A stretch of DNA of 64,000 bases from Schaalia odontolytica (GTDB lineage Bacteria; Actinomycetota; Actinomycetes; Actinomycetales; Actinomycetaceae). Made by a program: the position numbers and the translations under genes. Every line of letters begins with the position of its first letter. Positions within the stretch are counted from its first letter, which is position 1. Under the pieces are notes generated by a model. The model saw only the letters and a program-made list of their open reading frames with translations. It did not search any database and was not told the origin of the DNA. The DNA is taken from the NCBI RefSeq assembly GCF_031191545.1, contig NZ_CP133472.1, positions 1,240,001 to 1,304,000 on the forward strand, written 5' to 3'. Shown here piece after piece: positions 2,755 through 32,790 of the stretch.

Positions 2755-3084
2755 TTAGCGGAAGGAAATCTCCTTCTTGGTCTTGTTATCGAACCATCGC
2801 CGACGTCCGTCGGGCTCGACGACGAGTTGAATGTCGGAGCCGATCGGCAGGTCGTAGATACCGATGCAGGCGGGCTCAATGTCGCACAGCTCGTTAAAGT
2901 CAACGACGGTCATGTTCTTAGGATCGTCCAGGTACTCGGCGGTGTCGCGGTCGGACAGGACGCGCCAGCCGGAGTCCTGAGGGGCGAAGGGGTCCTCGCG
3001 GGTCAGCCACTTGATGTTGCCTGTGCGCTCAACAATCTTGCGAGAGACGATGGCCGCGCCGGCGTTGTTAATGAATGTGGTCAT
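2755..3084 (-). CDS. Imm33-like (DUF2185) immunity protein
   Basis: 109 residues, cytoplasmic, no signal peptide. The text GWRVLSDRDTAEYLDDP and a C-terminal IGIYDLPIGSDIQLV segment match the DUF2185/Imm33 domain as I recall it. That family is repeatedly found downstream of polymorphic toxins and is assigned as immunity. Its ATG overlaps the stop of the ankyrin gene by 4 bases (ATGA), so the two are translationally coupled and lie in the toxin operon. Which toxin it neutralises is inferred from position; two different immunity genes behind one nuclease is common when old immunity genes are retained. Confidence 0.7.
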   Translation of the reverse strand: MTTFINNAGAAIVSRKIVERTGNIKWLTREDPFAPQDSGWRVLSDRDTAEYLDDPKNMTVVDFNELCDIEPACIGIYDLPIGSDIQLVVEPDGRRRWFDNKTKKEISFR

Positions 3085-3647: not shown

Positions 3648-3650
3648 CCG

Positions 3651-8615: not shown

Positions 8616-8672
8616 CCTGTCACTGACCGACTGGTTACTCTGCAAACGCGGGTGTGGAATACAAGGGATCGT

Positions 8673-8702
8673 TTTGTCATAATGACCTTTGGTCGCTACT
8701 CT
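8673..8702 (+). promoter_or_regulatory. Predicted promoter of the first subtilase gene
   Basis: TTTGTC at 8673-8678 and TACTCT at 8697-8702 are separated by 18 bases. The -35 hexamer is identical to that of the fourth and fifth subtilase genes. The start codon follows at 8775, after a GGAAG ribosome-binding site. Confidence 0.5.
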
Positions 8703-8774
8703 TAGCCTGTTCCAATCCCTCAAGGGCGAGAATTTCTGACGCTCGCCTGCCAAATTCATACACGGTGGAAGAAT

Positions 8775-13459: not shown

Positions 13460-13488
13460 ATTGTCAGCTGCGTCATATGAGGTATTTT
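13460..13488 (+). promoter_or_regulatory. Predicted promoter of subtilase 2
   Basis: ATTGTC (13460-13465), 17-base spacer, TATTTT (13483-13488) preceded by GG. The leader that follows ends in CAACACAATGGAG, a ribosome-binding leader nearly identical in subtilases 3 to 5. Confidence 0.55.
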
Positions 13489-13562
13489 GTTGGGAGACGG
13501 CTGGTACACCGACGTACCGCGTGCCACCGGCGCGCCGTCCCCCAACACAATGGAGAAGGCTT

Positions 13563-17369: not shown

Positions 17370-17395
17370 CCCGAGCGCTGATCTGACGACAACGA

Positions 17396-17435
17396 CGAGG
17401 CCCGGGACGCTCTCTCACCAGTGGCCCGGGCCTCG
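17396..17435 (+). terminator. Terminator hairpin after subtilase 2
   Basis: CGAGGCCCGGG (17396-17406) and CCCGGGCCTCG (17425-17435) form a perfect 11-bp stem with an 18-base loop, 26 bases after the stop, followed by TTC. Confidence 0.75.
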
Positions 17436-17573
17436 TTCGCCGCGTGTCCTGCGTGCCCCCGCCGGAGCTCCGTGCGGAGGTTCTTCGCAGTCTCGTCCCC
17501 GTATCGCGGCCGATTGACGCGCGCCCGCTTCGTGTTGCTCGCGATACCCAATCAACACAATGGAGTGATTCAC

Positions 17574-20500
17574 ATGACAATGAAGACAACAACGTCGTTC
17601 CTCGCGCTCGCAGGTGCCTGCGCGCTCGCGCTCACAGGGCCGGCGTCTCTCGCGGTTCCACCGACTCCCACTCCGCCTGGACCCGCACCCGACGTCGCGG
17701 CCTCGTCTCTGCCCGTGGGCGACGTCGACACTGCGCTGACATCGAAAAGTGGCGAGACTACCGTGCCCGAACCCAGTGATGGGCGTAAGGACCCCACGGC
17801 GATCGTCGGCGTCATCGTCCAGCTTCAGGATGGGGCGGAGCGCGATGCTGCGCTGGCCTCCATCAACGAGGCCGTGGCCTCGGCGTTCCCGGGTTCCTCC
17901 GCCCACGTTGAGCGCGAATATGACAAGGCGTTGCAGGGCTTTGCGCTGAGCGCGCCCGCGGGCTCCCTCGATGCGATCCGAGCGGCGAGCGGCGTCAAGG
18001 GTGCGTTCGTTGAGCGTGAGACCCAGGTCAACGAGAACGCGGCAGCGGATGCGGAGGGTGGTTTCGCGGCTTCACGCCTGTCAGACCAGGATCCGGACAA
18101 CCTCAGCGCCCAGATCATGATGCGCACCGACCAGGTGTCCCAGAAGGGTGAGGGTAAGGTCATCGCGGTCATCGACACGGGTGTCGATGTCTCTCACCCG
18201 GCTTTCGCGGGCGCACTCGCGTCCGCGCCGTCGATGACCGCCGAGGCCGTCGCTGCGCTGACACCTCAGCTGGGTGAGGGTAAGAGTGGGGTCTACGTGA
18301 ATGAGAAGTTCCCCTTCGCGTACGACTACGCTGAGAATGATGCGGACGTTTCCCCCTCGGTATCCCACGGCACGCACGTGGCCGGGATTGCCGCCGGTAA
18401 CGCCGACCAGATCGTCGGAGTCGCCCCGGAGGCGCAGATCGTCGTCGCGAAGGTCTCGCGAGACGGCAGCAGAGCTATCTCGGATTCAGCGCTGTTGGCC
18501 GCTCTTGATGACATGGTTCTCCTGCGCCCCGATGTCATCAACCTGTCGCTCGGGTGGACGGCCGGCATGGACAACGAGGCTGACTCCGTGTATGCGACCG
18601 TGTACAAGAAGCTCCAGGAAGCGGGGATCACCGTCGACGCGGCCTCGGGTAACGCCTTCTCGGCCGGCTACGGCAACACCTCCGGGCGCAACCTTCCCTA
18701 CGCCTCGGACCCCGACTCATCCGTCCTTGCCGAACCCGCCTCCTACTCCTCCGTGGTTGCCGTCGCATCCCTCAACAACAGGTTGACCCTCAACGTCCTT
18801 AAGGCGGCCGGGCGCGACATCGCCTATCAGCGTGCGCGCGGCGCAAACGGCGAAAAAATAGCTGAGCTCACCGAGCTGAACCCAGGCGACTACGAGTACG
18901 TGGACGCCGGCTTCGCCTCCGAGGAGGACGTGGCCGCACTTGCAGCGAAGTATCCGGATGGCCTGGCGGGTAAGTTCGTACTCGTCTCGCGCGGAGAACT
19001 GACCTATAGTGCGAAGATTGACAACATTGCACCGCTCAAGCCCGCCGGAATCCTTGTCTATAACAACGTTCCCGGTGAAGAGCTCTTGGTGATGAGCCTG
19101 ACGACGAGCAGTGTTCCCGCCGCTTTCATTTCGCTTGAGAGCGGCCAGGCGATGCTGGCGGCCGCAGATCACCACCTGACCCTCGTGGATGGAAAGACGA
19201 TCACCCCGAACTCGAACTATTCGATCTCGGACTTCTCCGCGTGGGGCGTGTCTCCGGACCTGCGCCTCAAGCCCGAAATCGCCGCCCCCGGCGGAGACGT
19301 CTACTCTGCGGTCCCGGGTGGTACCTACGAGTTCATGTCCGGCACGTCCATGGCGAGCCCTCAGATGGCTGGTATCAGTGCGATCGTGCTTCAGCGTGTG
19401 CAGTCTGATCCTCTGTTTGCGTCGATGAGTGCGCGTGAGAAGGTTGAGGTGGTGCAGAACCTGATTATGGGTACGGCTCGGCCGCTGACGGATGCCGCCC
19501 AGACTTCGGGTGTGCTTTATTCGCCGCGTAAGCAGGGTGCTGGCCTTGTGGACGCTTTGGCTGCCACGACTTCGTCGGTGTACCCGACCGTGGTTGGCGC
19601 TCCCGAGCAGTCCCGGCCCAAGGCGGACCTGGGGGATGGGACGAGGGGTTGGCACTTTGATGTCACTTTGCACAACTTGTCGGGTGTGGAAGCCACGTAT
19701 GAGTTGAGTTCGCAGGCGCTGTCTGAGATTGTCGAGGGTGGTTTCTTCACCGAGCATTCCTCGGATTGGCGAGGCCGTGGCGTGGACATCTCGTACTCCG
19801 GAAAGACCGTGAGTGGCACCGGTGAGGGTGCGACCGTCACCGTCCCGGCCGGTGGTCAGGCCATGATCGGCGTGGACGTCACCCCAGGTGCCGATTTTGC
19901 TTCCTATGTTGCGCAGAATGCGCCCAACGGTACCTTCCTCGATGGTTTCGTGCGTTTCGCCTCGAAGACCGGAGGCCAGCCCGACCTGGCCGTGCCCTAC
20001 CTGGGGTTCTACGGGGACTGGGGCAAGGCACCTATCTTCGACGCCCTCGCCTCCGATGGTGGGGAGCACGCCCGCGCCTCGGCCATATATAACGGCATGA
20101 GCAACCAACCTCTGGGCTACAACCCCATGATGAAGGCCGAGGATTGGGTTGGTAACCCCAGGGCTGACCGTTACGTCCTGTCCCGGTCCGAGGCCTCGGG
20201 CGCACCCTCGGTCTTGGATCCGCGCACCGGCACATTGCGTAGCGTTCACAGGCTCAACACCGTGTATTCGAATGCTGCCGGAGAGACGATCGAATCCCTC
20301 GTGACTCATCAGGCCTGGAAGTCGAACGCCGAGGGCACCCGTGGCGTGATGAGCTGGGTTGAGCTGTGGCATGATCCCACGTATTTGTATACGCGCACCG
20401 AACCCTACGAGGACCTGCCCGATGGAATGTACAGGCTGACGATCTCGGCGCACAACGATGGTCCTTCGCAGGTGGAGCAGTCGATCTCCTACGACTTCCG

Positions 20501-21371
20501 CCTCGACACGGTGGGGCCGGTCGTCTCTCACCTGACCTACGTCGGTGAGGGTGAGGACACGGTTGTGTCCTTCGACGTCTCTGACTCATCGCCCCTTGCG
20601 GGCATCGATCTGCACGACCCGGCCGACGGTTCGTGGTTCTACCGTCACGTCTTCACGGATGCGGAGGGCACGGTCGGGGCGGATGGGACATACACGTACC
20701 ACGTCGAGGTTCCCTTCAAGGATATTGATGCTGCCTGGGGGCAACAGGGTGGCTCGGGCAGCGTCATCGCCCACCCGTACCTGCTGGCCTGGGACTACGG
20801 CCTCAACCACTCCGAGGCCGCGACCCTCGACCTGCCCTCGGAGAACCCGGGAGCATGCCTCAAACCCGACGGCGGCCACTGGGTGAAAGATGTTGCCGGT
20901 TGGTGGTACGCCTGCGCTGATGGCGCGGGTTACTTGAAGGACGGCTGGTTCACCATCAACGGGCGCGACTACCTATTCAACCCCTCTGGCTACATGCTGA
21001 CCGGTTTCCTCAAGCGTGCCGACGGCCAGTGGGTCTACGCGAATGAGTCCGGTGCCCTCGTGGGCGGCTGGGTGCGTGATGGCGGCCAGTGGTACTACCT
21101 GGATCCGGCCACGAAGGTCATGAAGACCGGCTGGGTTGCAGACGGTGGCTCCTGGTACTACCTCACGGCTTCCGGTGCGATGGCGACCGGCTGGGTCCAG
21201 GTGGATGGGTCCTGGTACTACCTGTCCGACTCGGGCAAGATGGCTACCGGCTGGGTCAACGTGGGCGGTTCCTGGTACTACCTGAATGCCTCCGGCGTCA
21301 TGCTCACCGGCACCCAGGTCATCAACGGGCGCACCTACGTCTTTGACGATTCGGGAGCCTGGATGCGATAA
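17574..21371 (+). CDS. Subtilase 3: secreted S8 protease with PA domain and wall-binding repeats
   Basis: 1265 residues, start at ATG 17574 after the AACACAATGGAG leader. Signal peptide MTMKTTTSFLALAGACALAL...SLA; DTALTSKSG motif; I9 propeptide; catalytic D201, H265 (SHGTHVAG) and S592 (SGTSMASPQ). The PA insert, Fn3-like modules and C-terminal WYYL repeats are as in subtilase 2. It carries the second copy of the 426-bp converted tract. The PA insert and the segment after GMSNQPLGYN differ most from its neighbours, so substrate choice may differ. A -35/-10 pair is less obvious upstream than for subtilases 2, 4 and 5; TTGACG at 17515 is a possible -35. Confidence 0.9.
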   Translation: MTMKTTTSFLALAGACALALTGPASLAVPPTPTPPGPAPDVAASSLPVGDVDTALTSKSGETTVPEPSDGRKDPTAIVGVIVQLQDGAERDAALASINEAVASAFPGSSAHVEREYDKALQGFALSAPAGSLDAIRAASGVKGAFVERETQVNENAAADAEGGFAASRLSDQDPDNLSAQIMMRTDQVSQKGEGKVIAVIDTGVDVSHPAFAGALASAPSMTAEAVAALTPQLGEGKSGVYVNEKFPFAYDYAENDADVSPSVSHGTHVAGIAAGNADQIVGVAPEAQIVVAKVSRDGSRAISDSALLAALDDMVLLRPDVINLSLGWTAGMDNEADSVYATVYKKLQEAGITVDAASGNAFSAGYGNTSGRNLPYASDPDSSVLAEPASYSSVVAVASLNNRLTLNVLKAAGRDIAYQRARGANGEKIAELTELNPGDYEYVDAGFASEEDVAALAAKYPDGLAGKFVLVSRGELTYSAKIDNIAPLKPAGILVYNNVPGEELLVMSLTTSSVPAAFISLESGQAMLAAADHHLTLVDGKTITPNSNYSISDFSAWGVSPDLRLKPEIAAPGGDVYSAVPGGTYEFMSGTSMASPQMAGISAIVLQRVQSDPLFASMSAREKVEVVQNLIMGTARPLTDAAQTSGVLYSPRKQGAGLVDALAATTSSVYPTVVGAPEQSRPKADLGDGTRGWHFDVTLHNLSGVEATYELSSQALSEIVEGGFFTEHSSDWRGRGVDISYSGKTVSGTGEGATVTVPAGGQAMIGVDVTPGADFASYVAQNAPNGTFLDGFVRFASKTGGQPDLAVPYLGFYGDWGKAPIFDALASDGGEHARASAIYNGMSNQPLGYNPMMKAEDWVGNPRADRYVLSRSEASGAPSVLDPRTGTLRSVHRLNTVYSNAAGETIESLVTHQAWKSNAEGTRGVMSWVELWHDPTYLYTRTEPYEDLPDGMYRLTISAHNDGPSQVEQSISYDFRLDTVGPVVSHLTYVGEGEDTVVSFDVSDSSPLAGIDLHDPADGSWFYRHVFTDAEGTVGADGTYTYHVEVPFKDIDAAWGQQGGSGSVIAHPYLLAWDYGLNHSEAATLDLPSENPGACLKPDGGHWVKDVAGWWYACADGAGYLKDGWFTINGRDYLFNPSGYMLTGFLKRADGQWVYANESGALVGGWVRDGGQWYYLDPATKVMKTGWVADGGSWYYLTASGAMATGWVQVDGSWYYLSDSGKMATGWVNVGGSWYYLNASGVMLTGTQVINGRTYVFDDSGAWMR
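19362..19787 (+). repeat. Near-identical 426-bp tract, copy 2 (gene conversion)
   Basis: Second copy of the tract at 15354-15779. Flanking sequence diverges sharply on both sides while the reading frame is conserved, which fits a recent unidirectional exchange. Confidence 0.85.
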
Positions 21372-21404
21372 GACTCCTGCCTGTCCGTTCTGTCAAGACT
21401 TATG

Positions 21405-21449
21405 CCCAGGCCTCGGAACCTCGCAATATGCGTGGTCTCGAGGCCTGGG
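21405..21449 (+). terminator. Terminator hairpin after subtilase 3
   Basis: CCCAGGCCTCG and CGAGGCCTGGG form an 11-bp perfect stem around a 23-base loop, 33 bases after the stop. Confidence 0.7.
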
Positions 21450-21478
21450 TAACGTTATCGGTAAAATAATCGTCAGCT

Positions 21479-21528
21479 GTTTCTCTTCGTGAAACAAAGT
21501 TTGTCACAAGACTTCTCTGCGGTATGTT
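21479..21528 (+). promoter_or_regulatory. Promoter and putative operator of subtilase 4
   Basis: GTTTC-N7-GAAAC (21479-21495) sits 4 bases before TTTGTC (21500-21505), then a 17-base spacer and TATGTT (21523-21528). The same block, same spacing, precedes subtilase 5. The inverted repeat directly upstream of the -35 could bind an activator or repressor. Confidence 0.6.
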
Positions 21529-21603
21529 GACAGTGACGGCCGACATGACGAGATCCTCGCCGTGTCCGAACACGGTCGTCCATCAACACATTGGAGTACG
21601 CAT

Positions 21604-24600
21604 ATGACAACGAAGAAACCAGCGACGCTCCTCGCGCTGGCTGGCACCGCCGCGCTGGTGGTCGCTGGCCCCGCGACCCTCGCATCCCCTCCAACCCCAG
21701 TGGACACGCGACTCGATGCTGGTGCCACGGCCTCGTCCCTGCCGGTCGGTGATGTCGATACCGCGCTCACCTCAAAGAGTGGGCAGACCTCCCAGCCCGA
21801 TCAGGTTACGCCGACCGCCGAGCAGGATGCCTCGGCGATCGTCGGGATCATCGTGCAGCTGGATGAGGGGACTGACCGTTCCTCCGCCCTCGCCTCGATC
21901 AACGAGGCCGTGGCTGGCGCGTTCCCGGGCGAGAGTGCCCAGGTGCAGCGCGAGTACGATAAGGCGTTGCAGGGCTTTGCGCTGAGCGCGCCCGCGGGTT
22001 CCCTCGACGCGATCCGCGCGGTGAGTGGCGTCAAGGGAGCGTTCCTCGATCGCGATACCCACGTCGACGGCGTAGACGACCAGGTCGCCGGCGAGGGTGC
22101 AACGAACTCCTCGCGCACCTCTGCCCAGGATCCCGCCAACCTCAGCGCGCAGCTGATGATGCACGCCGACCAGATCGCCCAAAAGGGCGACGGCAAGGTC
22201 GTTGCCGTCATTGATACGGGCGTGGACATGACGCACCCGGCGTTCACGGGTGCTCTCAAAGGAACCCTCGGGCTTTCCGAAGACAAGGTGGGTGCCCTGG
22301 CCCCCCAGCTGGGCGACGGAAAGACCGGCACCTACGTGTCGGATAAGTTTCCCTTCGCGTACGACTACGCAGATGACGACCCGGACGCCTCGCCGACCGG
22401 TGAAGCCGGATCGCACGGCACGCACGTCGCAGGCATCACCGCGGGCAACGCGGGTGAAATCGTTGGCATCGCCCCCGACGCCCAGATCATCGTGGCCAAG
22501 GTAGCGCGCAGCAGTGACGGTGGTATCCCGGACTCGGCGCTGTTGGCCGCCCTCGACGACATGGTGGTCCTGCATCCCGATGTCGTGAACCTGTCCCTCG
22601 GACAGACCGGCGGCATGGACAACGAGGCCGACTCCGTGTATGCGACCGTGTTCAAGAGCCTCCAGGAAGTGGGCGTGACCGTGAATGCGGCCGCCGGCAA
22701 TGAGTACACGGCGGGATACGGCAACCTATCCGGCAAGAACCTGCCCTACGCCTCTGACCCCGACTCCTCGGTCCTGTGCGAACCCGCGTCGTATTCCTCC
22801 GTCGTGTCCGTGGCTTCGGTCGACAACTCGCTGGCCCACAGTGCCTTCTCCGTCGGAGACCGCGACATTCCCTACCAGCGCGCCGGCGGCGCCGAGGGGC
22901 AGAAGATGCCCGACCTGTCCGACATGACCGGGGGCCCCTTCGAGTACGTCGATGGCGGAATTGGCTCGCCTGAGGACGGTGCCGCGCTCAAGGCCGCGTA
23001 CCCCGAGGGTCTCGAGGGCAAGATCGTTCTGGTCAAGCGAGGCCTCCTCACCTTCCAGGACAAGTTCAACAACATCGCGGCAGCCAAGCCCGCCGGCTTC
23101 ATCGTCTACAACAACGTTCCCGGTGATTCGCTCGTTGTTATGAGCCTGGTGACCGACGGCGTGCCCGCCGCGTTCATCTCGCAGGCTGATGGAGAGGCGA
23201 TGCTGGCCGCCGCCGACCGTCGCCTGAGCGTCGCCCCAGGTAAGGTTGTGGCCCCGAGCGCGAAGTACTCCATGTCGAGCTTCTCCTCCCTCGGTGTCAC
23301 TCCCGACCTGCGCCTCAAGCCCGAGGTCAGCGCCCCCGGCGGAAACATCTATTCCGCGGTCCCGGGTGGTACCTACGAGTTCATGTCCGGCACCTCGATG
23401 GCGACTCCGCAGATGGCGGGTGTGAGCGCTGTGGTCCTGCAGCGTGTGCAGTCTGATCCTCTGTTCGCGTCCATGAGTGCGCGCGAGAAGGTCGACGTCG
23501 TCCAGAACCTCGTCATGGGTACGGCGGCCCCTATCGTCGACCCGCTCCAGGACACTGGTGCCCCGTACTCCCCGCGTAAGCAGGGCTCGGGATTGACGAA
23601 CGTCCTGGCTGCCACGACCTCGTCGGTGTATCCGACCGTGGTTGGTGCTCCCGAGCAGTCTCGGCCCAAGGCGGACCTGGGGGATGGGACCACCGGCTGG
23701 CACTTCGACGTCACGCTCCACAACCTGTCGGGCGTGGAGGCGACGTACGAGTTGAGCTCACAGGCACTCTCTGAGATCGTCGCCGACGGCTTCTTCACCG
23801 GACACTCTGCCGATTGGCGAGGCAAGGGCGTGGACATCTCGTACTCAGGAAAGACCGTGAGCGGCACCGGTGAGGGTGCGACCGTCAACGTCCCCGCGAA
23901 CGGAGAGGCCACCCTGGGCGTGGACGTTAAGCCCGGCGACCAGTTCACCGCCTTTGCTGCGGCGAACGCGCCCAACGGCACCTTCCTTGACGGTTTCGTG
24001 CGCTTCACCTCGCGTACCGATTCGCAGCCGGACCTGACCGTGCCCTACCTGGGTTTCTACGGAAGCTGGGGGAAGGCTCCCATCTTCGATGCCCTCGCCT
24101 CCGAAGGCGGTGCGCACACGCTCGCGTCCGGCGTCTACAACGGCACCACGGGCATGCAACTGGGATACAACCCCCTGGTCAAGGACGCTGATCGCATCGG
24201 TCTGCCCAAGGCGGACCGCTACGTGGTCTCTCGGTCCGAGGCCTCGGGCGCACCGACGATCCTCGAACCGCGCACGGGTACGCTGCGCAGCGTCCACACC
24301 CTCAACGCCGCGTACACGAACGCCCCCGGGCAGACGGTCTCCTCCTTCACGCGATTCATGAACTGGAAGTCCGCGCTGGATTCCTCCGGAAAAATGACGT
24401 GGGTTGAGCAGGGACACGATCCGCTCACCCTCGATGCGCGTTCCGACGCGTTTGAGGGCCTGCCGGACGGTGCATATAAGTTGACGTTGTCGGCGCACAA
24501 CGATGGGCCTTCGCAGGTGGAGCAGTCGATCTCTTATGATTTCCGCATTGATACGGTCGCGCCCGTTGTCTCCAACCTGGAATACAAGGGTGAGGGTGCT

Positions 24601-25425
24601 GACATGGTCGTCTCCTTCGACGTTTCTGATTCCTCGCCGCTGGCTGGGATCGACGTGCATGACCCGGCCGATGGCCTGTGGTTCTACCGCTACGTTTTCT
24701 CAGACAGGGAGGGTAATCGTGGGGCGGATGGGACATACACGTACCACGTTGAGGTTCCCTTCAAGGATATTGATGCTGCGTGGGGCTACCAGGGTGGCTC
24801 GGGCAGCGTCATCGCCCACCCGTACCTGCTGGCCTGGGACTACGGCCTTAACCACTCGGAGGCCGCGACCCTCGACCTGCCCAGCGATAACCCCGGCGCG
24901 ACCGAGGCGTGCGCAAGCACCGACGGCGGCAACTGGGTCAAGGACGGTGCCGGTTGGTGGTACGCCTGTGCCGGTGGCAAGGGGTACCTCGCGAACGGTT
25001 GGTTCACGATCGATGGTTCGGAGTACCTGTTTGGTCCGTCTGGCTACATGGCGACCGGTTTCCTCAAGCGTGCCGACGGTCAGTGGGTCTACGCGAATGA
25101 GTCCGGTGCCCTCGTGGGCGGCTGGGTGCGTGATGGCGGCCAGTGGTACTACCTGGACCCTGCGACCAAGGTTATGAAGACCGGCTGGGTTGCAGACGGT
25201 GGCTCGTGGTACTACCTGCGCGCCAACGGGGCGATGGCTACCGGCTGGGTCCAGGTGGATGGTTCCTGGTACTACCTGAGCGCCTCCGGCGTGATGGCCA
25301 CCGGCTGGGTCAACGTGGGAGGCTCCTGGTACTACCTGAATGCCTCCGGCGTCATGCTCACCGGCACCCAGGTCATCAACGGACGCACCTACGTCTTTGA
25401 CACGAACGGCGCATGGATTGGGTGA
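21604..25425 (+). CDS. Subtilase 4: secreted S8 protease with PA domain and wall-binding repeats
   Basis: 1273 residues, start at ATG 21604 (TTGGAG ribosome-binding site). Signal peptide MTTKKPATLLALAGTAALVV; DTALTSKSG; I9 propeptide ending GVKGAFLDRD; D204, H271 (SHGTHVAG) and S598 (SGTSMATPQ). The PA insert reads LEGKIVLVKRGLLTFQDKF. Fn3-like modules follow, then six or so WYYL-type wall-binding repeats ending in NGRTYVFDTNGAWIG. The 3' part (24471-25262) is almost identical to subtilase 5 while the catalytic half differs more, so the binding end has been homogenised. Confidence 0.9.
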   Translation: MTTKKPATLLALAGTAALVVAGPATLASPPTPVDTRLDAGATASSLPVGDVDTALTSKSGQTSQPDQVTPTAEQDASAIVGIIVQLDEGTDRSSALASINEAVAGAFPGESAQVQREYDKALQGFALSAPAGSLDAIRAVSGVKGAFLDRDTHVDGVDDQVAGEGATNSSRTSAQDPANLSAQLMMHADQIAQKGDGKVVAVIDTGVDMTHPAFTGALKGTLGLSEDKVGALAPQLGDGKTGTYVSDKFPFAYDYADDDPDASPTGEAGSHGTHVAGITAGNAGEIVGIAPDAQIIVAKVARSSDGGIPDSALLAALDDMVVLHPDVVNLSLGQTGGMDNEADSVYATVFKSLQEVGVTVNAAAGNEYTAGYGNLSGKNLPYASDPDSSVLCEPASYSSVVSVASVDNSLAHSAFSVGDRDIPYQRAGGAEGQKMPDLSDMTGGPFEYVDGGIGSPEDGAALKAAYPEGLEGKIVLVKRGLLTFQDKFNNIAAAKPAGFIVYNNVPGDSLVVMSLVTDGVPAAFISQADGEAMLAAADRRLSVAPGKVVAPSAKYSMSSFSSLGVTPDLRLKPEVSAPGGNIYSAVPGGTYEFMSGTSMATPQMAGVSAVVLQRVQSDPLFASMSAREKVDVVQNLVMGTAAPIVDPLQDTGAPYSPRKQGSGLTNVLAATTSSVYPTVVGAPEQSRPKADLGDGTTGWHFDVTLHNLSGVEATYELSSQALSEIVADGFFTGHSADWRGKGVDISYSGKTVSGTGEGATVNVPANGEATLGVDVKPGDQFTAFAAANAPNGTFLDGFVRFTSRTDSQPDLTVPYLGFYGSWGKAPIFDALASEGGAHTLASGVYNGTTGMQLGYNPLVKDADRIGLPKADRYVVSRSEASGAPTILEPRTGTLRSVHTLNAAYTNAPGQTVSSFTRFMNWKSALDSSGKMTWVEQGHDPLTLDARSDAFEGLPDGAYKLTLSAHNDGPSQVEQSISYDFRIDTVAPVVSNLEYKGEGADMVVSFDVSDSSPLAGIDVHDPADGLWFYRYVFSDREGNRGADGTYTYHVEVPFKDIDAAWGYQGGSGSVIAHPYLLAWDYGLNHSEAATLDLPSDNPGATEACASTDGGNWVKDGAGWWYACAGGKGYLANGWFTIDGSEYLFGPSGYMATGFLKRADGQWVYANESGALVGGWVRDGGQWYYLDPATKVMKTGWVADGGSWYYLRANGAMATGWVQVDGSWYYLSASGVMATGWVNVGGSWYYLNASGVMLTGTQVINGRTYVFDTNGAWIG
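24471..25262 (+). repeat. Near-identical ~792-bp tract, copy 1 (subtilase 4)
   Basis: Matches 28528-29319 with scattered single mismatches, covering the last Fn3-like module and most wall-binding repeats. One difference makes a Tyr-to-Cys change in the other copy (GKGYLAN versus GKGCLAN). Confidence 0.85.
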
Positions 25426-25457
25426 GATGAGGTGATCCGCACCTAACGGTGTTCATG

Positions 25458-25501
25458 TTCGGGTCCGGGAACCTTGCTGCGTAAGTGTTCCCGGACCCGA
25501 A
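25458..25501 (+). terminator. Terminator hairpin after subtilase 4
   Basis: TTCGGGTCCGGGAAC and GTTCCCGGACCCGAA form a perfect 15-bp stem with a 14-base loop. Confidence 0.85.
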
Positions 25502-25531
25502 ATCATGCTGACAGTAAAATAATGTCCAATC

Positions 25532-25581
25532 GTTTCCCAATGTGAAACAAAGTTTGTCATATGCGTCCCGTGCGGTATGTT
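25532..25581 (+). promoter_or_regulatory. Promoter and putative operator of subtilase 5
   Basis: GTTTC-N7-GAAAC (25532-25548), then TTTGTC (25553-25558), 17 bases, TATGTT (25576-25581). Same elements and spacing as upstream of subtilase 4, although the bases inside the N7 differ. Confidence 0.6.
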
Positions 25582-25657
25582 GACAGTGACGGCCGGCACG
25601 GTGGAGTCCCCTCCTCCTGCCAACACGGTCACCCGTCGACACATTGGAGTTACCCAC

Positions 25658-28600
25658 ATGACGATGAAGAAAACAACGGCGTTCCTCGCGTTCGCCGGCA
25701 CCTGCGCGCTGGCGGTGACAGGGCCCGCGGCACTCGCAGCGCCGCCAAGTCTCGCAGACGCGCATCCCGCTACCGGAGCTACGGCCTCGTCCCTGCCGGT
25801 CGGTGATGTCGATACCGCGCTCACCTCGAAGAGTGGGCAGACTTCCCAGCCCGACCAGGTCACGCCAACCGCAGAGCAGAACCCCGCGGCGATCGTCGGG
25901 ATCATCGTGCAGCTGCAGGAAGGCTCGGACCGAGCGGCATCCCTTGCCTCGATCAACGAGGCCGTGGCCTCGGCATTCCCGGGCGAGAGCGCCCACGTGC
26001 AGCGCGAGTATGACAAGGCGTTGCAGGGCTTTGCGCTGAGTGCGCCCGCGGGCTCCCTCGACGCGATCCGCGCGGCGAGCGGCGTGAAGGCCGCGTTCCT
26101 TGAGCGCGAAACCCGCGTCAGCGATGTCGACGAGGTCGATGCCGAGGGCGGCACCCAGGCCCCCCGGCTCTCGACCCAGCATCCCGACAACCTCAGCGCC
26201 CAGATCATGATGCGCGCCGACCAGCTTACCCAGAAGGGTGAAGGCAAGGTCGTCGCCGTCATCGACACCGGCGTCGAAATGACCCACCCAGCTTTCGCGG
26301 GCGCACTCTCAGGTAAGCCGTCGATGTCCGCCGACGACGTCGCTGCCCTGGCGCCCCAGCTGGGTGACGGCAAGACCGGGGTCTATGTCAATGACAAGTT
26401 CCCCTTCGCCTACGACTACGCGGACGGCGACAACGACGCGATGCCCGCCAAGGGATCCTACGGCTCCCACGGCACGCACGTCGCCGGCATCACCGCCGGC
26501 AACGCCGACCAGATCATCGGTGTCGCCCCCGAGGCGCAGATCATCGTCGCGAAGGTCTCGCGCAGCTCAGACGGCGAGATTCCCGACTCGGCGCTGCTCG
26601 CCTCCCTCGACGACATGGTGGTCCTGCACCCCGATGTCGTGAACCTGTCCCTCGGACAGCTCGGCGGCATGGACAACGAGGCCGACTCCGTGTACGCAAC
26701 CGTGTTCAAGAAACTCCAGGACGAGGGCGTCTCGGTCAACGCCGCGGCCGGCAACCACTACTCGACCGGATACGGCAACACCTCCGGGCGCAACCTTCCC
26801 TACGCCTCCGACCCCGACTCCTCGACCCAGTGCGAGCCCGCCACCTACTCCTCGGTCCTCGCCGTAGCCTCGGTCGATAACCTCCTGTCCTACAATGCCT
26901 TCTCCGCCGCCGGAAAAGACATCGCCTACCAGCGTGCGCGCGGCGCAAACGGCGAGAAGGTCGCCGAAATCGCTGAGCTGGCCGCCGGATCCTACGAGTA
27001 CGTCGACGCCGGATTCGCCACCGAGGAAGACGCCGCCGCCCTCACAGCGAAGTACCCCGATGGCCTGGCGGGTAAGTTTGCCCTGGTCTCACGCGGCAAG
27101 CTGACCTTCCAGAAGAAGATCGAGAACCTGGCGGCGCTCAAGCCCGCCGGTATCCTCGTGTACAACAACGTCGCCGGCGACTCACTCATGCTCATGAGCG
27201 TCACGACCCTGGACGTACCCGCCGCGTTCATTTCCCAGGAGAACGGTCAGGCCATGCTCGCGGCCGCAGATCACCACCTGACCCTCGTGGATGGTAAGAC
27301 CATCACCCCGAACTCGAACTATTCGATGTCGGACTTCTCCTCGTGGGGCGTGTCTCCGGACCTGCGCCTCAAGCCCGAGGTCAGCGCCCCCGGCGGCAGC
27401 ATCTACTCGGCCGTCCTGGACGGAAACTACGATCACCTCTCCGGCACGTCCATGGCGACCCCGCAGATGGCGGGTGTGAGCGCTGTGGTCCTGCAGCGTG
27501 TGCAGTCTGATCCTCTGTTCGCGTCGATGAGTGCGCGCGAGAAGGTCGACGTCGTCCAGAACCTCATCATGGGCACGGCTCGCCCCATCGCGGACGCCGC
27601 CCAGGAGACCGGTGTCTTCTATTCGCCGCGTAAGCAGGGCTCGGGCATCGTTGACGCCCTGGCTGCCACGACCTCGTCGGTGTACCCGACCGTGGTTGGC
27701 GCTCCCGAGCAGTCCCGACCCAAGGCGGACCTGGGGGACGGGACCACCGGCTGGCACTTCGAGGTCACGCTCCACAACCTGTCCGGCACTGATGCCAGCT
27801 ATTCGCTGAGCTCCCAGGCCCTGTCCGAGGACGTTGACGGAGGATACTTCACCGGTAGCTCCACGGATTGGCGAGGCAAGGGCGTGGACATCTCGTACTC
27901 AGGAAAGACCGTGAGCGGCACCGGTGAGGGTGCGACCGTCATCGTCCCCGCGAACGGCGAGGCCACGATCGGCGTGGACGTCACCCCCGGCGACCAGTTC
28001 ACCGCCTTTGCTGCGGCGAACACGCCCAACGGCACCTTCCTTGACGGTTTCGTGCGCTTCACCTCGCGCACCGAGTCCCAGCCGGACCTGACCGTGCCCT
28101 ACCTGGGCTTCTACGGTGACTGGGGCAAGCCCGCGATCTTCGACCAGCTCAACTCCGACGGGTGGGGGCACACGCTACCCTCGGGCATCTATAACGGCAC
28201 GAGCGGAAACATCCTCGGCTACAACCCGTTCACTAAGACGAGCGATCGTACGGGTCTGCCCAAGGCGGACCGCTACGTGGTCTCTCGGTCCGAGGCTTCG
28301 GGCGCACCGACGATCCTTGAGCCCCGCACGGGTACGCTGCGCAGCGTCCACACGCTCAACACCACCTACACGAATGCCTCGGGAGAGAAGGTCGCATCCT
28401 TCACGCGTTACCAGAACTGGAAGTCGGGTATCAGCCCGAGTACCGGCAGGATGACCTGGGTCGAAGAAGGCCACGAGCCGACGTCGCTCGACCTGCGTTC
28501 CGACGCGTTCAAGGGCCTGCCGGACGGTGCATATAAGTTGACGCTGTCGGCGCACAACGATGGTCCTTCGCAGGTGGAGCAGTCGATCTCTTATGATTTC

Positions 28601-29482
28601 CGCATTGATACGGTCGCGCCCGTTGTCTCCAACCTGGAATACAAGGGTGAGGGTGCCGACATGGTCGTCTCCTTCGACGTCTCCGATTCCTCGCCGCTGG
28701 CTGGCATCGACGTGCATGACCCGGCCGATGGCCTGTGGTTCTACCGCTACGTTTTCTCAGACAGGGAGGGTAATCGTGGGGCGGATGGGACATACACGTA
28801 CCACGTTGAGGTTCCCTTCAAGGATATTGATGCTGCGTGGGGCTACCAGGGTGGCTCGGGCAGCGTCATCGCCCACCCGTACCTGCTGGCCTGGGACTAC
28901 GGCCTTAACCACTCGGAGGCCGCGACCCTCGACCTGCCCAGCGATAACCCCGGCGCGACCGAGGCGTGCGCAAGCACCGACGGCGGCAACTGGGTCAAGG
29001 ACGGTGCCGGTTGGTGGTACGCCTGTGCCGGTGGCAAGGGGTGCCTCGCGAACGGTTGGTTCACGATCGATGGTTCGGAGTACCTGTTTGGTCCGTCTGG
29101 CTACATGGCGACCGGTTTCCTCAAGCGTGCCGACGGTCAGTGGGTCTACGCGAATGAGTCCGGTGCCCTCGTGGGCGGCTGGGTGCGTGATGGCGGCCAG
29201 TGGTACTACCTGGACCCTGCGACCAAGGTTATGAAGACCGGCTGGGTTGCAGACGGTGGCTCCTGGTACTACCTGCGCGCCAACGGGGCGATGGCTACCG
29301 GCTGGGTCCAGGTGGATGGCTCCTGGTACTACCTGTCCAACTCGGGCACGATGGCGACGGGCTGGATCAAGGTCGGCGGCCTCTGGTATTACCTGGGAAC
29401 CGATGGCGCAATGCTCACCGGCACCCAGGTCATCAACGGACGCACCTACGTGTTCGACGACTCCGGTGTGTGGCGAGGCTGA
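25658..29482 (+). CDS. Subtilase 5: secreted S8 protease with PA domain and wall-binding repeats
   Basis: 1274 residues, start at ATG 25658 after ATTGGAG. Signal peptide MTMKKTTAFLAFAGTCALAV; DTALTSKSG; I9 propeptide ending GVKAAFLERE; D203, H271 (SHGTHVAG) and S598 (SGTSMATPQ). PA insert ~410-530; Fn3-like modules; C-terminal choline-binding-type repeats. An unusual Cys sits in the first wall repeat (GKGCLAN), where the paralogue has Tyr. The gene closes the array and is followed by a very strong terminator, after which base composition drops. Confidence 0.9.
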   Translation: MTMKKTTAFLAFAGTCALAVTGPAALAAPPSLADAHPATGATASSLPVGDVDTALTSKSGQTSQPDQVTPTAEQNPAAIVGIIVQLQEGSDRAASLASINEAVASAFPGESAHVQREYDKALQGFALSAPAGSLDAIRAASGVKAAFLERETRVSDVDEVDAEGGTQAPRLSTQHPDNLSAQIMMRADQLTQKGEGKVVAVIDTGVEMTHPAFAGALSGKPSMSADDVAALAPQLGDGKTGVYVNDKFPFAYDYADGDNDAMPAKGSYGSHGTHVAGITAGNADQIIGVAPEAQIIVAKVSRSSDGEIPDSALLASLDDMVVLHPDVVNLSLGQLGGMDNEADSVYATVFKKLQDEGVSVNAAAGNHYSTGYGNTSGRNLPYASDPDSSTQCEPATYSSVLAVASVDNLLSYNAFSAAGKDIAYQRARGANGEKVAEIAELAAGSYEYVDAGFATEEDAAALTAKYPDGLAGKFALVSRGKLTFQKKIENLAALKPAGILVYNNVAGDSLMLMSVTTLDVPAAFISQENGQAMLAAADHHLTLVDGKTITPNSNYSMSDFSSWGVSPDLRLKPEVSAPGGSIYSAVLDGNYDHLSGTSMATPQMAGVSAVVLQRVQSDPLFASMSAREKVDVVQNLIMGTARPIADAAQETGVFYSPRKQGSGIVDALAATTSSVYPTVVGAPEQSRPKADLGDGTTGWHFEVTLHNLSGTDASYSLSSQALSEDVDGGYFTGSSTDWRGKGVDISYSGKTVSGTGEGATVIVPANGEATIGVDVTPGDQFTAFAAANTPNGTFLDGFVRFTSRTESQPDLTVPYLGFYGDWGKPAIFDQLNSDGWGHTLPSGIYNGTSGNILGYNPFTKTSDRTGLPKADRYVVSRSEASGAPTILEPRTGTLRSVHTLNTTYTNASGEKVASFTRYQNWKSGISPSTGRMTWVEEGHEPTSLDLRSDAFKGLPDGAYKLTLSAHNDGPSQVEQSISYDFRIDTVAPVVSNLEYKGEGADMVVSFDVSDSSPLAGIDVHDPADGLWFYRYVFSDREGNRGADGTYTYHVEVPFKDIDAAWGYQGGSGSVIAHPYLLAWDYGLNHSEAATLDLPSDNPGATEACASTDGGNWVKDGAGWWYACAGGKGCLANGWFTIDGSEYLFGPSGYMATGFLKRADGQWVYANESGALVGGWVRDGGQWYYLDPATKVMKTGWVADGGSWYYLRANGAMATGWVQVDGSWYYLSNSGTMATGWIKVGGLWYYLGTDGAMLTGTQVINGRTYVFDDSGVWRG
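28528..29319 (+). repeat. Near-identical ~792-bp tract, copy 2 (subtilase 5)
   Basis: Second copy of 24471-25262, at a constant offset of 4057 bases, without indels that I can see. Confidence 0.85.
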
Positions 29483-29635: not shown

Positions 29636-29664
29636 TTGCCTACTTAACTCGGTGTGTCTACTAT
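29636..29664 (+). promoter_or_regulatory. Promoter of the restriction endonuclease gene (leaderless)
   Basis: TTGCCT (29636-29641), 17-base spacer, TACTAT (29659-29664). Seven bases separate TACTAT from ATG 29672, so the transcript should begin at or next to the start codon. Confidence 0.6.
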
Positions 29665-29671
29665 TGTGCAC

Positions 29672-30784
29672 ATGGACGTCGAAGCCCGAGCGTTGCAGGC
29701 ACTGGAGTCAGCGTGGCAGAAGTATGTTGAAGGTGATACGAGCTATCCCGCGATCGACAATGACGTGATGACCGCAATTGACACGGTGTTTGGTAGTAGC
29801 TCGGCCCCTGCACAACAAATCATGTTTGCCATTGCTGTTGGCGTGGAGCTTGAGCCTGATCGTGATCCAGCTTCGCTGCAGGCAAAGTCGGGTGTCGATG
29901 GAGTGAACCGGAGAACTCAGGCGGAAGGCGTGGGTCGTGCGCTAAATGAATTCTGCCAGGAGCGGCGTTTGACTTGGAAAGTTTCGCAGGATCCTGGAGT
30001 GTCAAATCCATTTCGAGAATTGCGTATTGATCAGAGGTGGATAAAAGAGCGGAAAGGGAGTTCCGTAAAATGGGCTAAGGGCCTGCTTGTGCTTGTAGAG
30101 TTCTTTAAAGCTGAGGCAAATAGGGAGGCAGCAACGTCAGTTGTTGACTATGTTGCAACGCGCATTGTCGAGTTGTCGGTAGCTCAACGGATAGAATATC
30201 CGAAATTTCCGGCAACCGCTGCGGTTGCTATGCGACTTACGCGACTGTTTCTCGAAAGGTGTGACAATAGGCCGGATGCTCTTGAGGCTGCGATCACTGC
30301 TGCGATTCGTGTTGTTGCGCGCCGTATGGCAGAGCCGCTTTGTGTGAACCGAGGGGATGTGAACTCTCCAGATCCCATTGATATTGAAATTATCTCAGAG
30401 TCTGATCCAAATAATCGACACGGGGTGGAAGTTACCGATAATTATCTAACCGCAAATAAATTGCGTAATGAAGTTATTGAGGCGATGAAGAAGAAAGGTC
30501 TCTCCCGAGCGGTTGTTGTTTCTCGTGGTGTAAATAAGGCTGAGTTTGATGGCGTGGATAAGTTGATTAGACACTCTCGGCAAAATCTCAATTATTTCAT
30601 TGATCTTGTCAGTATTGACGTGATTGAGCACTGGCTCAACTTTCCTGGGTATGGATACCTCCTGGGTGGTGAATATATCAATGAGTTAGGTGATGAGCTG
30701 GATAGGCTTTCGACTCCCTCAATGCGGAGGTGTTGGCTAAATGTTCTCGAGGATTACTGCACGGATGCAATAGAGAACTCGTAA
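29672..30784 (+). CDS. Putative type II restriction endonuclease (possibly SacI family)
   Basis: 370 residues from ATG 29672; an upstream in-frame GTG at 29654 overlaps the -10-like region and is less likely. Not secreted and without membrane segments. It is convergent with a complete C5 cytosine methyltransferase, the usual partner. A possible catalytic core reads PDPIDIEI...HGVEVTDNYL, resembling a PD-(D/E)xK strand pair without the expected Lys. The layout (a helical first half, this core, then AVVVSRGV) recalls SacI-like enzymes. GC content is visibly lower than in the flanking genes, a sign of horizontal gain. The recognition site is unknown. Confidence is high for a restriction-modification partner, moderate for the family. 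Confidence 0.65.
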   Translation: MDVEARALQALESAWQKYVEGDTSYPAIDNDVMTAIDTVFGSSSAPAQQIMFAIAVGVELEPDRDPASLQAKSGVDGVNRRTQAEGVGRALNEFCQERRLTWKVSQDPGVSNPFRELRIDQRWIKERKGSSVKWAKGLLVLVEFFKAEANREAATSVVDYVATRIVELSVAQRIEYPKFPATAAVAMRLTRLFLERCDNRPDALEAAITAAIRVVARRMAEPLCVNRGDVNSPDPIDIEIISESDPNNRHGVEVTDNYLTANKLRNEVIEAMKKKGLSRAVVVSRGVNKAEFDGVDKLIRHSRQNLNYFIDLVSIDVIEHWLNFPGYGYLLGGEYINELGDELDRLSTPSMRRCWLNVLEDYCTDAIENS

Positions 30785-30828
30785 TCTGTCGCAATCATCT
30801 TTCGGGATTTGATGCCCACGTGTTGTTG

Positions 30829-32028
30829 CTATGAGCAGTGGCCTTCGAGAGCATTTCGAATTGAACGTGCGACAGCGAGCGCTAGACGTGGCGGAACCGC
30901 GTTCCCAATCTGTCGAAACTGTGTGGTGCGTGGTCCGCACCATCTCATTCCGATTGGGAATGTTTGAATTGCAGCCGCTTCTTCGACTGTTAAACGTCGA
31001 AGAAAGGGAGGAACTTCGGCAGTTACCGCTTCTGTTCCGCGAGTCCACAGTTTCCGATGGTACCTCTCTACCCATGGTTCTTTAGCTGGGTTTTCGAGAG
31101 CCTGTTGGTCGATGATTGGTGTCTTATTGCCGCCCATTGATGCAGGAAGAGTCATTGATGGGGCTTCTAGGTTCAGGGGTCTTCCGGCACCGTTGAAGAG
31201 CATTCCTGCGTATGGTGAACGGCGGAGCACGGGCGCCTTCGCTGTTGTGATTTGTGCGTAGCACAGAGAATCGTTGCCTGGAGTGTTGTACTCAGGGAGT
31301 TGTTCGAAGGCGTCCCTGACAGAAAATCGCTTTGAATGTGTCGTCGGTGTAAGAGCCTCTGGCGTACCGCAGTCTCTTCGAATGCCGATAAGAAACATCC
31401 TCTCCCTTGCTTGAGGCACACCGAAGTCAGCTGCGTTTGCTAGGGTCAGGAGAGTCGAGTAACCGAGTTTCTCGGCGCGTGCTTGGAGCGCAGTCCTGGT
31501 GGTCTCCCATCGCTTGTTTTGGTAAAGCGCCTTCACATTCTCCAGGACGAATGCGCGCGGATTAACGCGTTTCACGATATCGAGAAAGTGAAAAACATGC
31601 TTTGAGCGTTCATCATTGGGGTCCATTTTTCCTGCAACGCTGAAACCCTGGCATGGTGGTCCCCCAATGACCAGGTCAGCCATCCCTGAGGTTGGTAGGT
31701 TGTCCTCGGCAAGTGCGAGGATGTCGCCTACATGAACGGAGTGGCTGGTGTTTGCAAGATGTTGGTGTGTCTCAGATAGCTGGTCAAATGCAAGTTCGTG
31801 TGTCTGCATGGCTGTCGGATCGAGTTCGCTGACCCACACTGGTACATAGCCCGCAATCATAAATCCAATATCGAGACCGCCGGCTCCGGCGTACAAAGAG
31901 ACAAACGTTCCTTGGGGCGTGGTGACCGGTTCGATGTCTGAATAATCGCCCATGACTCCACGAGGTGCCCCAGAAGCATCTGCCTTTGTTGTGGCTTGGT
32001 GAATGCTCAGGCGCTGGCTCTTTGTCAT
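30829..32028 (-). CDS. DNA (cytosine-5-)-methyltransferase of a type II R-M system
   Basis: 399 residues with all main C5-methyltransferase motifs in order: motif I FVSLYAGAGGLDIGF (~42-56), motif IV GGPPCQGFSVAGK with the catalytic Cys (~120-132), motif VI FVLENVKAL, motif VIII QARERMFLIGIR, and motif X IGNAVPPRLA near the end. The variable target-recognition region lies between VIII and X. It faces the endonuclease gene with 44 bases between stops. A -10-like TAAACT lies 6 bases before the ATG, with no Shine-Dalgarno, so it is probably leaderless. Confidence 0.92.
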   Translation of the reverse strand: MTKSQRLSIHQATTKADASGAPRGVMGDYSDIEPVTTPQGTFVSLYAGAGGLDIGFMIAGYVPVWVSELDPTAMQTHELAFDQLSETHQHLANTSHSVHVGDILALAEDNLPTSGMADLVIGGPPCQGFSVAGKMDPNDERSKHVFHFLDIVKRVNPRAFVLENVKALYQNKRWETTRTALQARAEKLGYSTLLTLANAADFGVPQARERMFLIGIRRDCGTPEALTPTTHSKRFSVRDAFEQLPEYNTPGNDSLCYAQITTAKAPVLRRSPYAGMLFNGAGRPLNLEAPSMTLPASMGGNKTPIIDQQALENPAKEPWVERYHRKLWTRGTEAVTAEVPPFLRRLTVEEAAAIQTFPIGMRWCGPRTTQFRQIGNAVPPRLALAVARSIRNALEGHCS

Positions 32029-32040: not shown

Positions 32041-32198
32041 AGCGAGTGCTTGCTGATCTGTGTACATAGCTGGCGTGAGCCCTGCAACGTGGTGCTTGTA
32101 GTGTGGGGTTTCCTGTAGAAGTTGGGGAGCATTTGTGTCAGGAGGTTTGAGCTGGTAGACCCTGCGCAAGAACGCTGTATGTACGGCGGCCACTGCGG

Positions 32199-32204
32199 TA
32201 TGGT
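32199..32204 (+). promoter_or_regulatory. -10 element TATGGT of the orphan propeptide gene
   Basis: The sequence around it, TGCGGTATGGTG, resembles TGCGGTATGTTG at the promoters of subtilases 4 and 5. The -35 is weak (TGTATG, 17 bases upstream). This likeness suggests shared descent and perhaps shared control. Confidence 0.4.
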
Positions 32205-32265
32205 GGAAGCAGCGACACGTCTCGGTGTCGCCTGATACCGGCCTCGATCGAATGGGAGCGCCTCC

Positions 32266-32739
32266 GTGAAGAAACCAGCTGTTTTCCTTGCCGGGGTGGG
32301 CACGTGCGCGCTTGCGGTGGCGAGCTGTTCGACCACGGCATCCACGCCAACCGCCCCGCAATCGACCCCAACTCCCGACTCCCCCCAGTCTGCGCCGGGA
32401 TCCCAGGCCTCGTCCGCGCCGACGGTCGATCCTGACACCGCGCTGACACCGAAGAATGGGCAGAGCGGTCCGAGCGTCCAGTCCGGCACCGAGGAACCGG
32501 AGGGTTTCGTGACCGTCATCGTTCAGCTCGAGGATGATGCCGACGAGAAGGCATCCCTCGACTCGATTAACGAGGCCGTGGCCTCGGTGTTCCCGGGCGG
32601 GTCCGTTTCCGTGGAGCGCGAGTACCGCAACGCCTTAAAAGGCTATGCGCTGCGTGCGCCAGCGGGCTCGCTCGACGTGATTCGCTCGGTGAGCGGCGTG
32701 AAGGCGGCATTCCTGGACGGTAACAACCGCCTGCTGTGA
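32266..32739 (+). CDS. Orphan I9 subtilisin-propeptide lipoprotein
   Basis: 157 residues from a GTG start (GGGAG seven bases upstream). It begins MKKPAVFLAGVGTC and has a lipobox LAVASC with Cys21, so a membrane lipoprotein is predicted, unlike the subtilases, whose signal peptides lack the Cys. Next come a Thr/Pro/Ser linker, a DTALTPKNG motif matching DTALTSKSG of the subtilases, and a full I9 domain (FVTVIVQLEDDAD to GVKAAFLDGN). The protein stops 5 residues later, exactly where the protease domain would begin. Known stand-alone I9 proteins inhibit subtilisins or help them fold. Whether this one does so for the neighbouring enzymes is inference. A terminator follows at once, so it is a finished gene and not an obvious fragment. 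Confidence 0.85.
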   Translation: MKKPAVFLAGVGTCALAVASCSTTASTPTAPQSTPTPDSPQSAPGSQASSAPTVDPDTALTPKNGQSGPSVQSGTEEPEGFVTVIVQLEDDADEKASLDSINEAVASVFPGGSVSVEREYRNALKGYALRAPAGSLDVIRSVSGVKAAFLDGNNRLL

Positions 32740-32745: not shown

Positions 32746-32790
32746 AACCGGCTGCCTCGCGCAACGGCGCGAGACAGCGGGATACCGGTT
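32746..32790 (+). terminator. Terminator hairpin between the orphan propeptide and the LPG-synthase-like gene
   Basis: Core stem CTCGCGC-AACG-GCGCGAG (32756-32773), extended by GCTG/CAGC and by AACCGG/CCGGTT around small internal loops. It lies 6 bases after the orphan stop and 19 bases from the convergent gene's stop, so it can serve both. Confidence 0.75.

Follow-up and report, generated by a model that had tools for sequence, protein, structure and literature searches.

A stand-alone, lipobox-bearing I9 propeptide beside the subtilase array of Schaalia odontolytica

Why would a bacterium whose subtilases carry propeptides of their own encode one more propeptide as a separate protein? The question is raised by a 64,000-nucleotide stretch of Schaalia odontolytica DNA (contig NZ_CP133472.1, positions 1,240,001 to 1,304,000 of the forward strand), here called the window, in whose numbering coordinates are given unless another locus is named. 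At 32266-32739 (+) it holds a gene for a putative stand-alone I9 lipoprotein of 157 residues, for which we use the working name SOLO; upstream of it, at 13461-29482, lie the subtilase genes S8_2 to S8_5. To our knowledge, the self-protection of bacteria that secrete several subtilases or bind them to the wall has rarely been tied to a dedicated propeptide-type inhibitor, and a one-gene, membrane-tethered propeptide with adjacent candidate targets makes the question of envelope self-digestion directly testable. We lean slightly towards the view that SOLO is a lipid-anchored propeptide that acts in trans on the neighbouring choline-binding subtilases and holds them in check at the membrane. A trans-acting I9 module is the best reading of the protein in the light of its fold, the register of its end, its linker and lipobox, its linkage to the array and a promoter core common to both.

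Anatomy, ancestry and predicted fold of SOLO

The SOLO gene starts with GTG and was defined by its open reading frame (ORF), its Pfam match and homology. From the N-terminus, the protein consists of a lipoprotein signal peptide (residues 1-20, 32266-32325, from the ortholog alignment) that ends AVASC, with Cys21 (32326-32328; V-A-S-C, from ortholog and paralogue alignment) as the lipobox cysteine, followed by a Pro/Ser/Gln-rich linker (residues 22-79, 32329-32502, from the sequence and the ortholog alignment) that includes the motif DTALTPK (residues 57-63, 32434-32454) and by a single I9 domain, after which the reading frame stops. Lipoboxes follow the pattern [LVI][ASTVI][GAS]C, and the form V/L/I-A-S/G-C is present in all ten SOLO orthologs described below, the pattern match marking a putative lipidation site.

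Inhibitor_I9 was the sole Pfam match in SOLO, at residues 83-151, with E=1.1e-3 and 20.0 bits against a cut-off of 21.2 bits in the protein scan and 21.4 bits, above the cut-off, in the scan of the whole genome. Six more orthologs were compared with the same model; one (locus L085) scored above the cut-off (23.6 bits) and five below it (16.1-19.5 bits). No peptidyl-prolyl isomerase (PPIase) domain was found in the Pfam scan, and NCBIfam gave no match. Taken alone the Pfam score is borderline, but the I9 assignment is beyond chance as judged from homology to the N-termini of the four array proteases (E<=9.1e-34). Searched against its own genome, SOLO matched itself and seven other places, namely the four array proteases and three weaker ones. 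The N-terminal regions of the four are 54-56% identical to SOLO (E 4.5e-36 to 9.1e-34) and read DTALTSK where SOLO has DTALTPK. The signal peptides of the array paralogues share ancestry with that of SOLO, with for example TGPATLASP where SOLO has ASCST; none of the eight paralogue rows aligned has a cysteine at the lipobox position, whereas 10/10 SOLO orthologs do. A sequence-only reading of this DNA had described a 157-residue protein with a lipobox at Cys21, a DTALTxK motif and an I9 domain, set among paralogues with ordinary signal peptides, and ORF analysis, Pfam and paralogue homology agree with it on these points. The same reading saw a strong hairpin behind the gene. There is a hairpin 3' of the stop codon (32748-32781), and it is moderately better than shuffled sequence: the 73-nucleotide stretch containing it folds at -28.9 kcal/mol with z -1.91, and 8 of 200 shuffles were equally good.

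An AlphaFold model built from 15 rows, together with the Pfam match, places a propeptide fold at residues 81-150 (32506-32715), with block values of 85-91 for the predicted local distance difference test (pLDDT). The C-terminal tail, residues 151-157 (32716-32736, delimited by comparison of propeptide registers), is where the model becomes uncertain, with a pLDDT of 58 as the mean of the block. The best structural match was the PCSK9 prodomain, and the propeptides of subtilisin E, subtilisin BPN' and Tk-subtilisin were also among the matches. Elongation factor 1-beta scored equally high, and little can therefore be concluded from the fold by itself.

The place where the protein ends is more telling with regard to a propeptide. 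When the Pfam alignments are extrapolated without gaps from their ends, profile position 82 is reached by residue 157 of SOLO, by residue 77 of the BPN' propeptide, which is its last, and by residue 76 of POIA1, its natural end; six other SOLO orthologs scanned and a separate I9 ORF from another genome of the phylum (G284) likewise end on position 82. The distance from a conserved GV to the C-terminus is 14 residues in 10/10 SOLO orthologs. In 10 of the 19 structural rows with subtilisin or Tk-subtilisin propeptides, the alignment stops at SOLO residue 151 or 152 in a register that puts residue 157 on P1, residue 152 being paired, for example, with residue 72 of the subtilisin E propeptide and with residue 64 of the Tk-propeptide (an entry described as minus five C-terminal residues). 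From these sequence and model comparisons, the end of SOLO appears to coincide with the P1 register of subtilisin propeptides or to miss it by no more than two residues. When hhalign was used to compare sequence-only profiles with the BPN' propeptide and POIA1, no alignment resulted (probability 0.2%), and a profile search of the PDB with profile A1 gave three insignificant matches, one of them the cucumisin propeptide (E=0.52).

Conservation, selection and a common promoter core

Twelve of 35 genomes of the genus, our own included, match SOLO. Ten of these have exactly one short-frame ortholog each and constitute the Schaalia odontolytica group, whose members we take to be oral bacteria; the other two, G007 and G008, have long frames only. 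Loss or frequent decay of the gene in relatives, which the sequence-only reading had named as the mark of a leftover, was looked for. What was found was a short ortholog in the ten genomes that showed an array with related I9 domains, intact and lipobox-bearing in every case and with its stop directly after the I9 domain; none was found in the other 25 genus genomes (E<=0.001). The lipobox cysteine, D57, A59, L60, T61, K63 and the last column are kept in all ten orthologs. SOLO follows the last S8 gene in 10/10 genomes (in G022 the contig starts inside that S8 gene), at a distance of 154-308 nucleotides in the nine without the insertion described below.

Beyond the genus, profile A1 revealed no further stand-alone ortholog among 213 genomes of the family. 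It matched 23 of them, ten of which have SOLO. Ten others, outside the genus, match the signal and linker part, with the query end at or before position 70 (at 103 in G078), and within the genus G012 has a weak match inside a 2477-residue frame, while the matches in G007 and G008 are confined to long frames. Across the phylum, PF05922 matched 44 of 149 genomes, and 5 of the 75 matches listed lie in frames of at most 200 residues: SOLO itself, two apparent broken S8 genes (G342 and G326), a row whose frame is lost close to the end of its contig (G317) and a separate I9 ORF without a signal peptide (G284). No SOLO match was found on plasmids, and no relative among 20 candidate stretches of viral contigs.

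SOLO is under purifying selection. The ratio of nonsynonymous to synonymous substitution (dN/dS, NG86) is 0.14-0.62 in 44 of 45 ortholog pairs, and 0.90 in the remaining one, the near-identical pair G005/G006. Over the ten orthologs, mean pN divided by mean pS gives 0.11 in the signal peptide (residues 1-21), 0.62 in the linker and 0.39 in the I9 domain.

The I9 domain has a signature of its own, going beyond a mere copy of a protease I9. Compared with 22 protease I9 domains, there is no overlap of letters at residue 121 (R/K in SOLO, D/N/S/G in the proteases) or at the last residue, 157, and the letters are nearly disjoint at residues 83, 95, 97, 114, 115, 127, 130 and 152. Net charges of the domain overlap, at -2 to -5 for SOLO and -3 to -6 for the proteases. 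In an I9 tree of 33 rows, which took in the 22 protease I9s while some array copies were missed by the selecting regular expression, SOLO stays together as a single group, one change sufficing for it, in 200/200 bootstrap trees. The G017 ortholog has the string GVSAAFL in common with the I9 domains of two neighbouring proteases of that genome (L017 and L053), a sign that SOLO and the array may have undergone gene conversion; this SOLO may have exchanged sequence with its neighbours.

A promoter-like core, CTGCGGTATGGTGGAAG, lies at 32193-32209 (+) upstream of SOLO and was recognized by comparison across genomes: all ten have a 17-mer with at most two mismatches to CTGCGGTATGTTGGAGG in this place, and the core is kept in 10/10 where the flanks have diverged. 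In the six of the ten genomes covered by a genome-wide motif scan (G001, G019, G020 and G022 were left out), the core TGCGGTATG(T/G)TG occurs solely before SOLO and array proteases. Our own genome of 2.46 Mb has TGCGGTATGNTG three times, before S8_4, S8_5 and SOLO; in the five others TGCGGTATGTTG occurs eight times, before SOLO in 5/5 and before an array protease in 3/5 (G005, G006 and G017). The 12-mer before SOLO is unchanged in G001 and altered by one letter in G019, G020 and G022. As read from the sequence, TATGTT fits a -10 box; a consensus promoter scan did not report this element. In the nine other genomes the last protease gene is followed by what reads, by eye, as an inverted repeat, and CTGC(G/T)(G/C)TATGTTGGA stands between the repeat and SOLO. 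The counterpart in our own genome is CTGCGGTATGGTGGA, and the insertion there left the promoter-like element with SOLO. Upstream of S8_4 and S8_5 (before 21604 and 25661), the sequence around GAAACAAAGTTTGTCA resembles a dyad and is possibly an operator; nothing of the kind precedes SOLO, so that control may differ.

A propeptide acting in trans and its rivals

On the view we favour, SOLO would have arisen when the 5' part of an array protease gene was duplicated, the promoter probably included, and would have gained (or kept) a lipobox. The exported protein would stay on the outer face of the membrane with its folded I9 domain on a flexible linker. This domain would dock onto a mature protease near the membrane and place its tail in the active-site cleft, on the non-prime side, and the protease would be restrained there until it is out at choline-type wall ligands. 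Inhibition appears a more likely output than folding help, because the stand-alone I9 proteins named in the available text of PMC6993865 are described as inhibitors or regulators, and because inhibition by YIB2 and POIA1 is tuned by their last six residues according to the accessible part of PMC10580911. More tentatively, and with more doubt than belief, we raise the idea of a bacterial "immunity" propeptide: one per array, driven by a related promoter, that would allow the cell to operate several wall-bound subtilases and keep them off at the membrane in the way that immunity proteins act against toxins, convergent with SUB1-ProM and POIA1. The sequence-only reading had proposed a membrane-tethered inhibitor or folding factor acting in trans that protects the producer. 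Its core, a trans-acting I9 module, is supported by selection, the promoter-like element and the C-terminal register; inhibition, folding, recruitment and protection of the producer are inference.

Several observations weigh against restraint of the proteases by SOLO. The argument from the C-terminal register rests on Pfam extrapolation; structure agrees in the 10 rows given above, and in the other 9 of 19 the alignment crosses the low-confidence tail and pairs residue 157 with BPN' residue 75 or Tk residue 67, two short of P1. In the array proteases, moreover, the stretch from the register position to the catalytic Asp (Asp32 in subtilisin) is longer than in subtilisin by about 16 residues, so the P1 register may not apply to them. 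The tail has drifted among orthologs, and its last residue is Q or L in SOLO as opposed to S, D, N, T, A or E in the paralogues. Given the nine positions at which it differs from protease I9s, the SOLO domain need not bind the same face. Support for the SOLO branch in the I9 tree is weak (76/0), with the G017 row unresolved. The ten genomes may be one clade, in which case the co-occurrence of SOLO and array would be a single inheritance and not ten independent cases. In the literature, the accessible portions of PMC6993865 and PMC10580911 report the propeptide tail as non-essential for inhibition of PfSUB1 and likewise in cucumisin, and C-terminal truncation of SUB1-ProM left parasite growth unchanged (PMC6993865). 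Finally, the known lipoprotein partners of other surface subtilases promote maturation, not inhibition, in the sections available of PMC13374181 and PMC8167434.

This last point leads to a rather unlikely but serious alternative, in which SOLO is a membrane-held intramolecular-chaperone domain, a folding or maturation factor provided in trans to proteases leaving the translocon, with a role like that of PrtM or PrcB. The membrane position would suit such a factor, maturation is what PrtM (PMC13374181) and PrcB (PMC8167434) promote, and in mesophilic bacterial subtilases the propeptide is described as both chaperone and inhibitor (PMC10580911, available text). All four whole array proteases have I9 regions of their own, however, so a second copy of the chaperone looks redundant; SOLO also has no PPIase domain, and the description of stand-alone I9 proteins in PMC6993865 points the other way.

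Clearly less probable is a function in docking or recruitment, in which the I9 domain would bind the mature protease without much block and so keep a pool of it near the membrane or present it to substrates, a role that has been proposed for dentilisin's lipid-anchored subunits. The variable linker and the lipobox are in keeping with this, as are the SOLO-specific residues and a low-confidence tail (pLDDT 58) that may end two residues before P1. The three fully scanned proteases already have choline-binding repeats for retention at the surface, though, and the constant end column argues for a functional tail.

We consider it very unlikely that SOLO serves as a decoy or inhibitor for subtilases of the host or of competitors, or in some unrelated surface role, and is linked to the array by origin only. 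The SOLO-specific residues could be accommodated in this way, and so could the pN/pS ratio, which is higher in the I9 region (0.39) than in the signal peptide (0.11); against it stand the array linkage and the promoter core common with the array proteases, and a lipid anchor would hold SOLO on its producer.

That SOLO is the functionless 5' end of a truncated sixth protease is barely credible and largely excluded within the one set of ten genomes compared (not strains within a species), for although homology to protease N-termini is clear and array proteases do break (S8_1 here, S8_4 in G023), the idea is rejected on intact single-copy orthologs in 10/10 genomes with dN/dS well below 1 in 44 of 45 pairs, and contradicted as well by the invariant lipid cysteine, the constant end column and the promoter-like core kept amid diverged flanks.

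The neighbourhood and known systems

All subtilase genes of the array are on the plus strand. S8_5 (25577-29482) encodes I9, S8, PA and fn3_5 domains and choline-binding repeats by Pfam. S8_4 (21562-25425) has the same S8, PA, fn3_5 and choline-binding composition, with its I9 region seen by alignment, and S8_3 (17421-21371) has a weak I9 match in addition to S8, PA, fn3_5 and choline-binding repeats (Pfam and alignment). For S8_2 (13461-17369) the I9 region was scanned with Pfam and the catalytic region aligned. In scans of the whole proteins the I9 scores were below the cut-off for S8_5 (17.3 bits) and S8_3 (14.7 bits), and S8_4 gave no row; the genome scan gave scores above it for S8_2 (25.0 bits) and S8_5 (23.0 bits). 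In the alignment the I9 region is visible in all four, and the catalytic motifs DTG, HGTH and GTSM are readable. The predicted model of an array protease was poor (mean pLDDT 40.9, nine rows). The more distant subtilase S8_1 (8775-13340), identified from ORFs and a domain scan, carries leucine-rich repeats, and an in-frame TAG (10284-10286) splits its reading frame; genome G017 has an open ortholog of 1522 residues, and S8_4 is the gene that is split in G023. Of the five adjacent subtilases announced by the sequence-only reading, four are thus whole in this genome.

That reading also placed SOLO beside the array. This is right in that the gene is just 3' of it in 10/10 genomes, yet in our own genome, and in this one only, two ORFs intervene. 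According to domain scan and synteny, the segment at 29654-32028 is a lineage-specific insertion with a 376-residue ORF on the plus strand, for which neither Pfam nor NCBIfam gave a family match, and a C5 cytosine methyltransferase gene on the minus strand. The two resemble a restriction-modification pair. The insertion is not part of the proposed SOLO system. Downstream of SOLO, the opposite strand encodes a 1023-residue protein with a flippase-like domain (41.3 bits, slightly below the cut-off). In five of the ten genomes a Fic-domain gene lies between the two (L085 at 8608-10002, G001, G020, G022 and G026); the domain was checked with Pfam in L085 and assigned by similar N-terminus and length in the other four. 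Elsewhere in the window, at 3081-6323 (-), an 890-residue ORF that combines a T7SS_signal domain with a GH-E nuclease domain at its C-terminus stands beside a 188-residue ORF; the first resembles a polymorphic toxin, for which the second may be the immunity gene.

How does SOLO compare with known proteins? Its nearest relatives, the propeptides of the array subtilases, have a homologous signal peptide, the DTALT motif and an I9 domain; unlike SOLO, they are without the lipobox cysteine and run on into a linker and the S8 domain. The 93-residue I9 ORF of genome G284 (L093, 5473-5754, -) is also stand-alone beside an S8 gene and ends in the same Pfam register, but no signal peptide or lipobox was seen in it, it is distant within the phylum, and its score of 21.1 bits is slightly below the cut-off. 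In that locus (L093, 3919-5754, -) the I9 ORF is upstream of an S8 gene with a partial I9 match of its own, and it is a possible cytoplasmic counterpart of SOLO.

POIA1 of Pleurotus, yeast proteinase B inhibitor 2, Arabidopsis SPI-1 and Toxoplasma TgMIC5 are stand-alone proteins of the I9 fold like SOLO, and POIA1 ends in the same Pfam I9 register. We know of no lipid anchor on any of the four. They are eukaryotic, and SOLO adds a lipobox, a long linker and adjacency to the genes of its presumed targets.

Two lipoproteins share the genetic setting. PrtM is encoded beside the cell-envelope subtilase lactocepin PrtP and acts on it in trans, and is a PPIase where SOLO is an I9 domain (PMC13374181, as far as the available text goes). 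PrcB of Treponema denticola is a small lipoprotein needed for expression of, and interacting with, dentilisin, the subtilase of the same operon; it differs from SOLO in that the accessible part of PMC8167434 reports no homologs outside oral Treponema, and dentilisin PrtP is itself acylated.

A close precedent is SUB1-ProM of Plasmodium. According to the available text of PMC6993865, it is likewise a stand-alone propeptide encoded beside subtilase genes, its C-terminal tail has been modelled into the active site, and it inhibits SUB1 experimentally; it is eukaryotic, is thought to be active in the parasitophorous vacuole, and no lipid anchor is mentioned in that text. The claim of the sequence-only reading that no such system had been described is therefore too broad with respect to SUB1-ProM and holds only where the protein is both bacterial and lipid-anchored: no stand-alone I9 protein of this form was found in a search of openly licensed papers, and a search directed at the species returned no papers. 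Fungi, yeast, plants and apicomplexans are known to have I9 inhibitors of the stand-alone kind; within the searches made, the lipid-anchored bacterial form is apparently new. With SOLO, the stand-alone I9 proteins would come to include lipid-anchored ones from bacteria, and the surface subtilases of oral bacteria have in it a candidate for a natural inhibitor.
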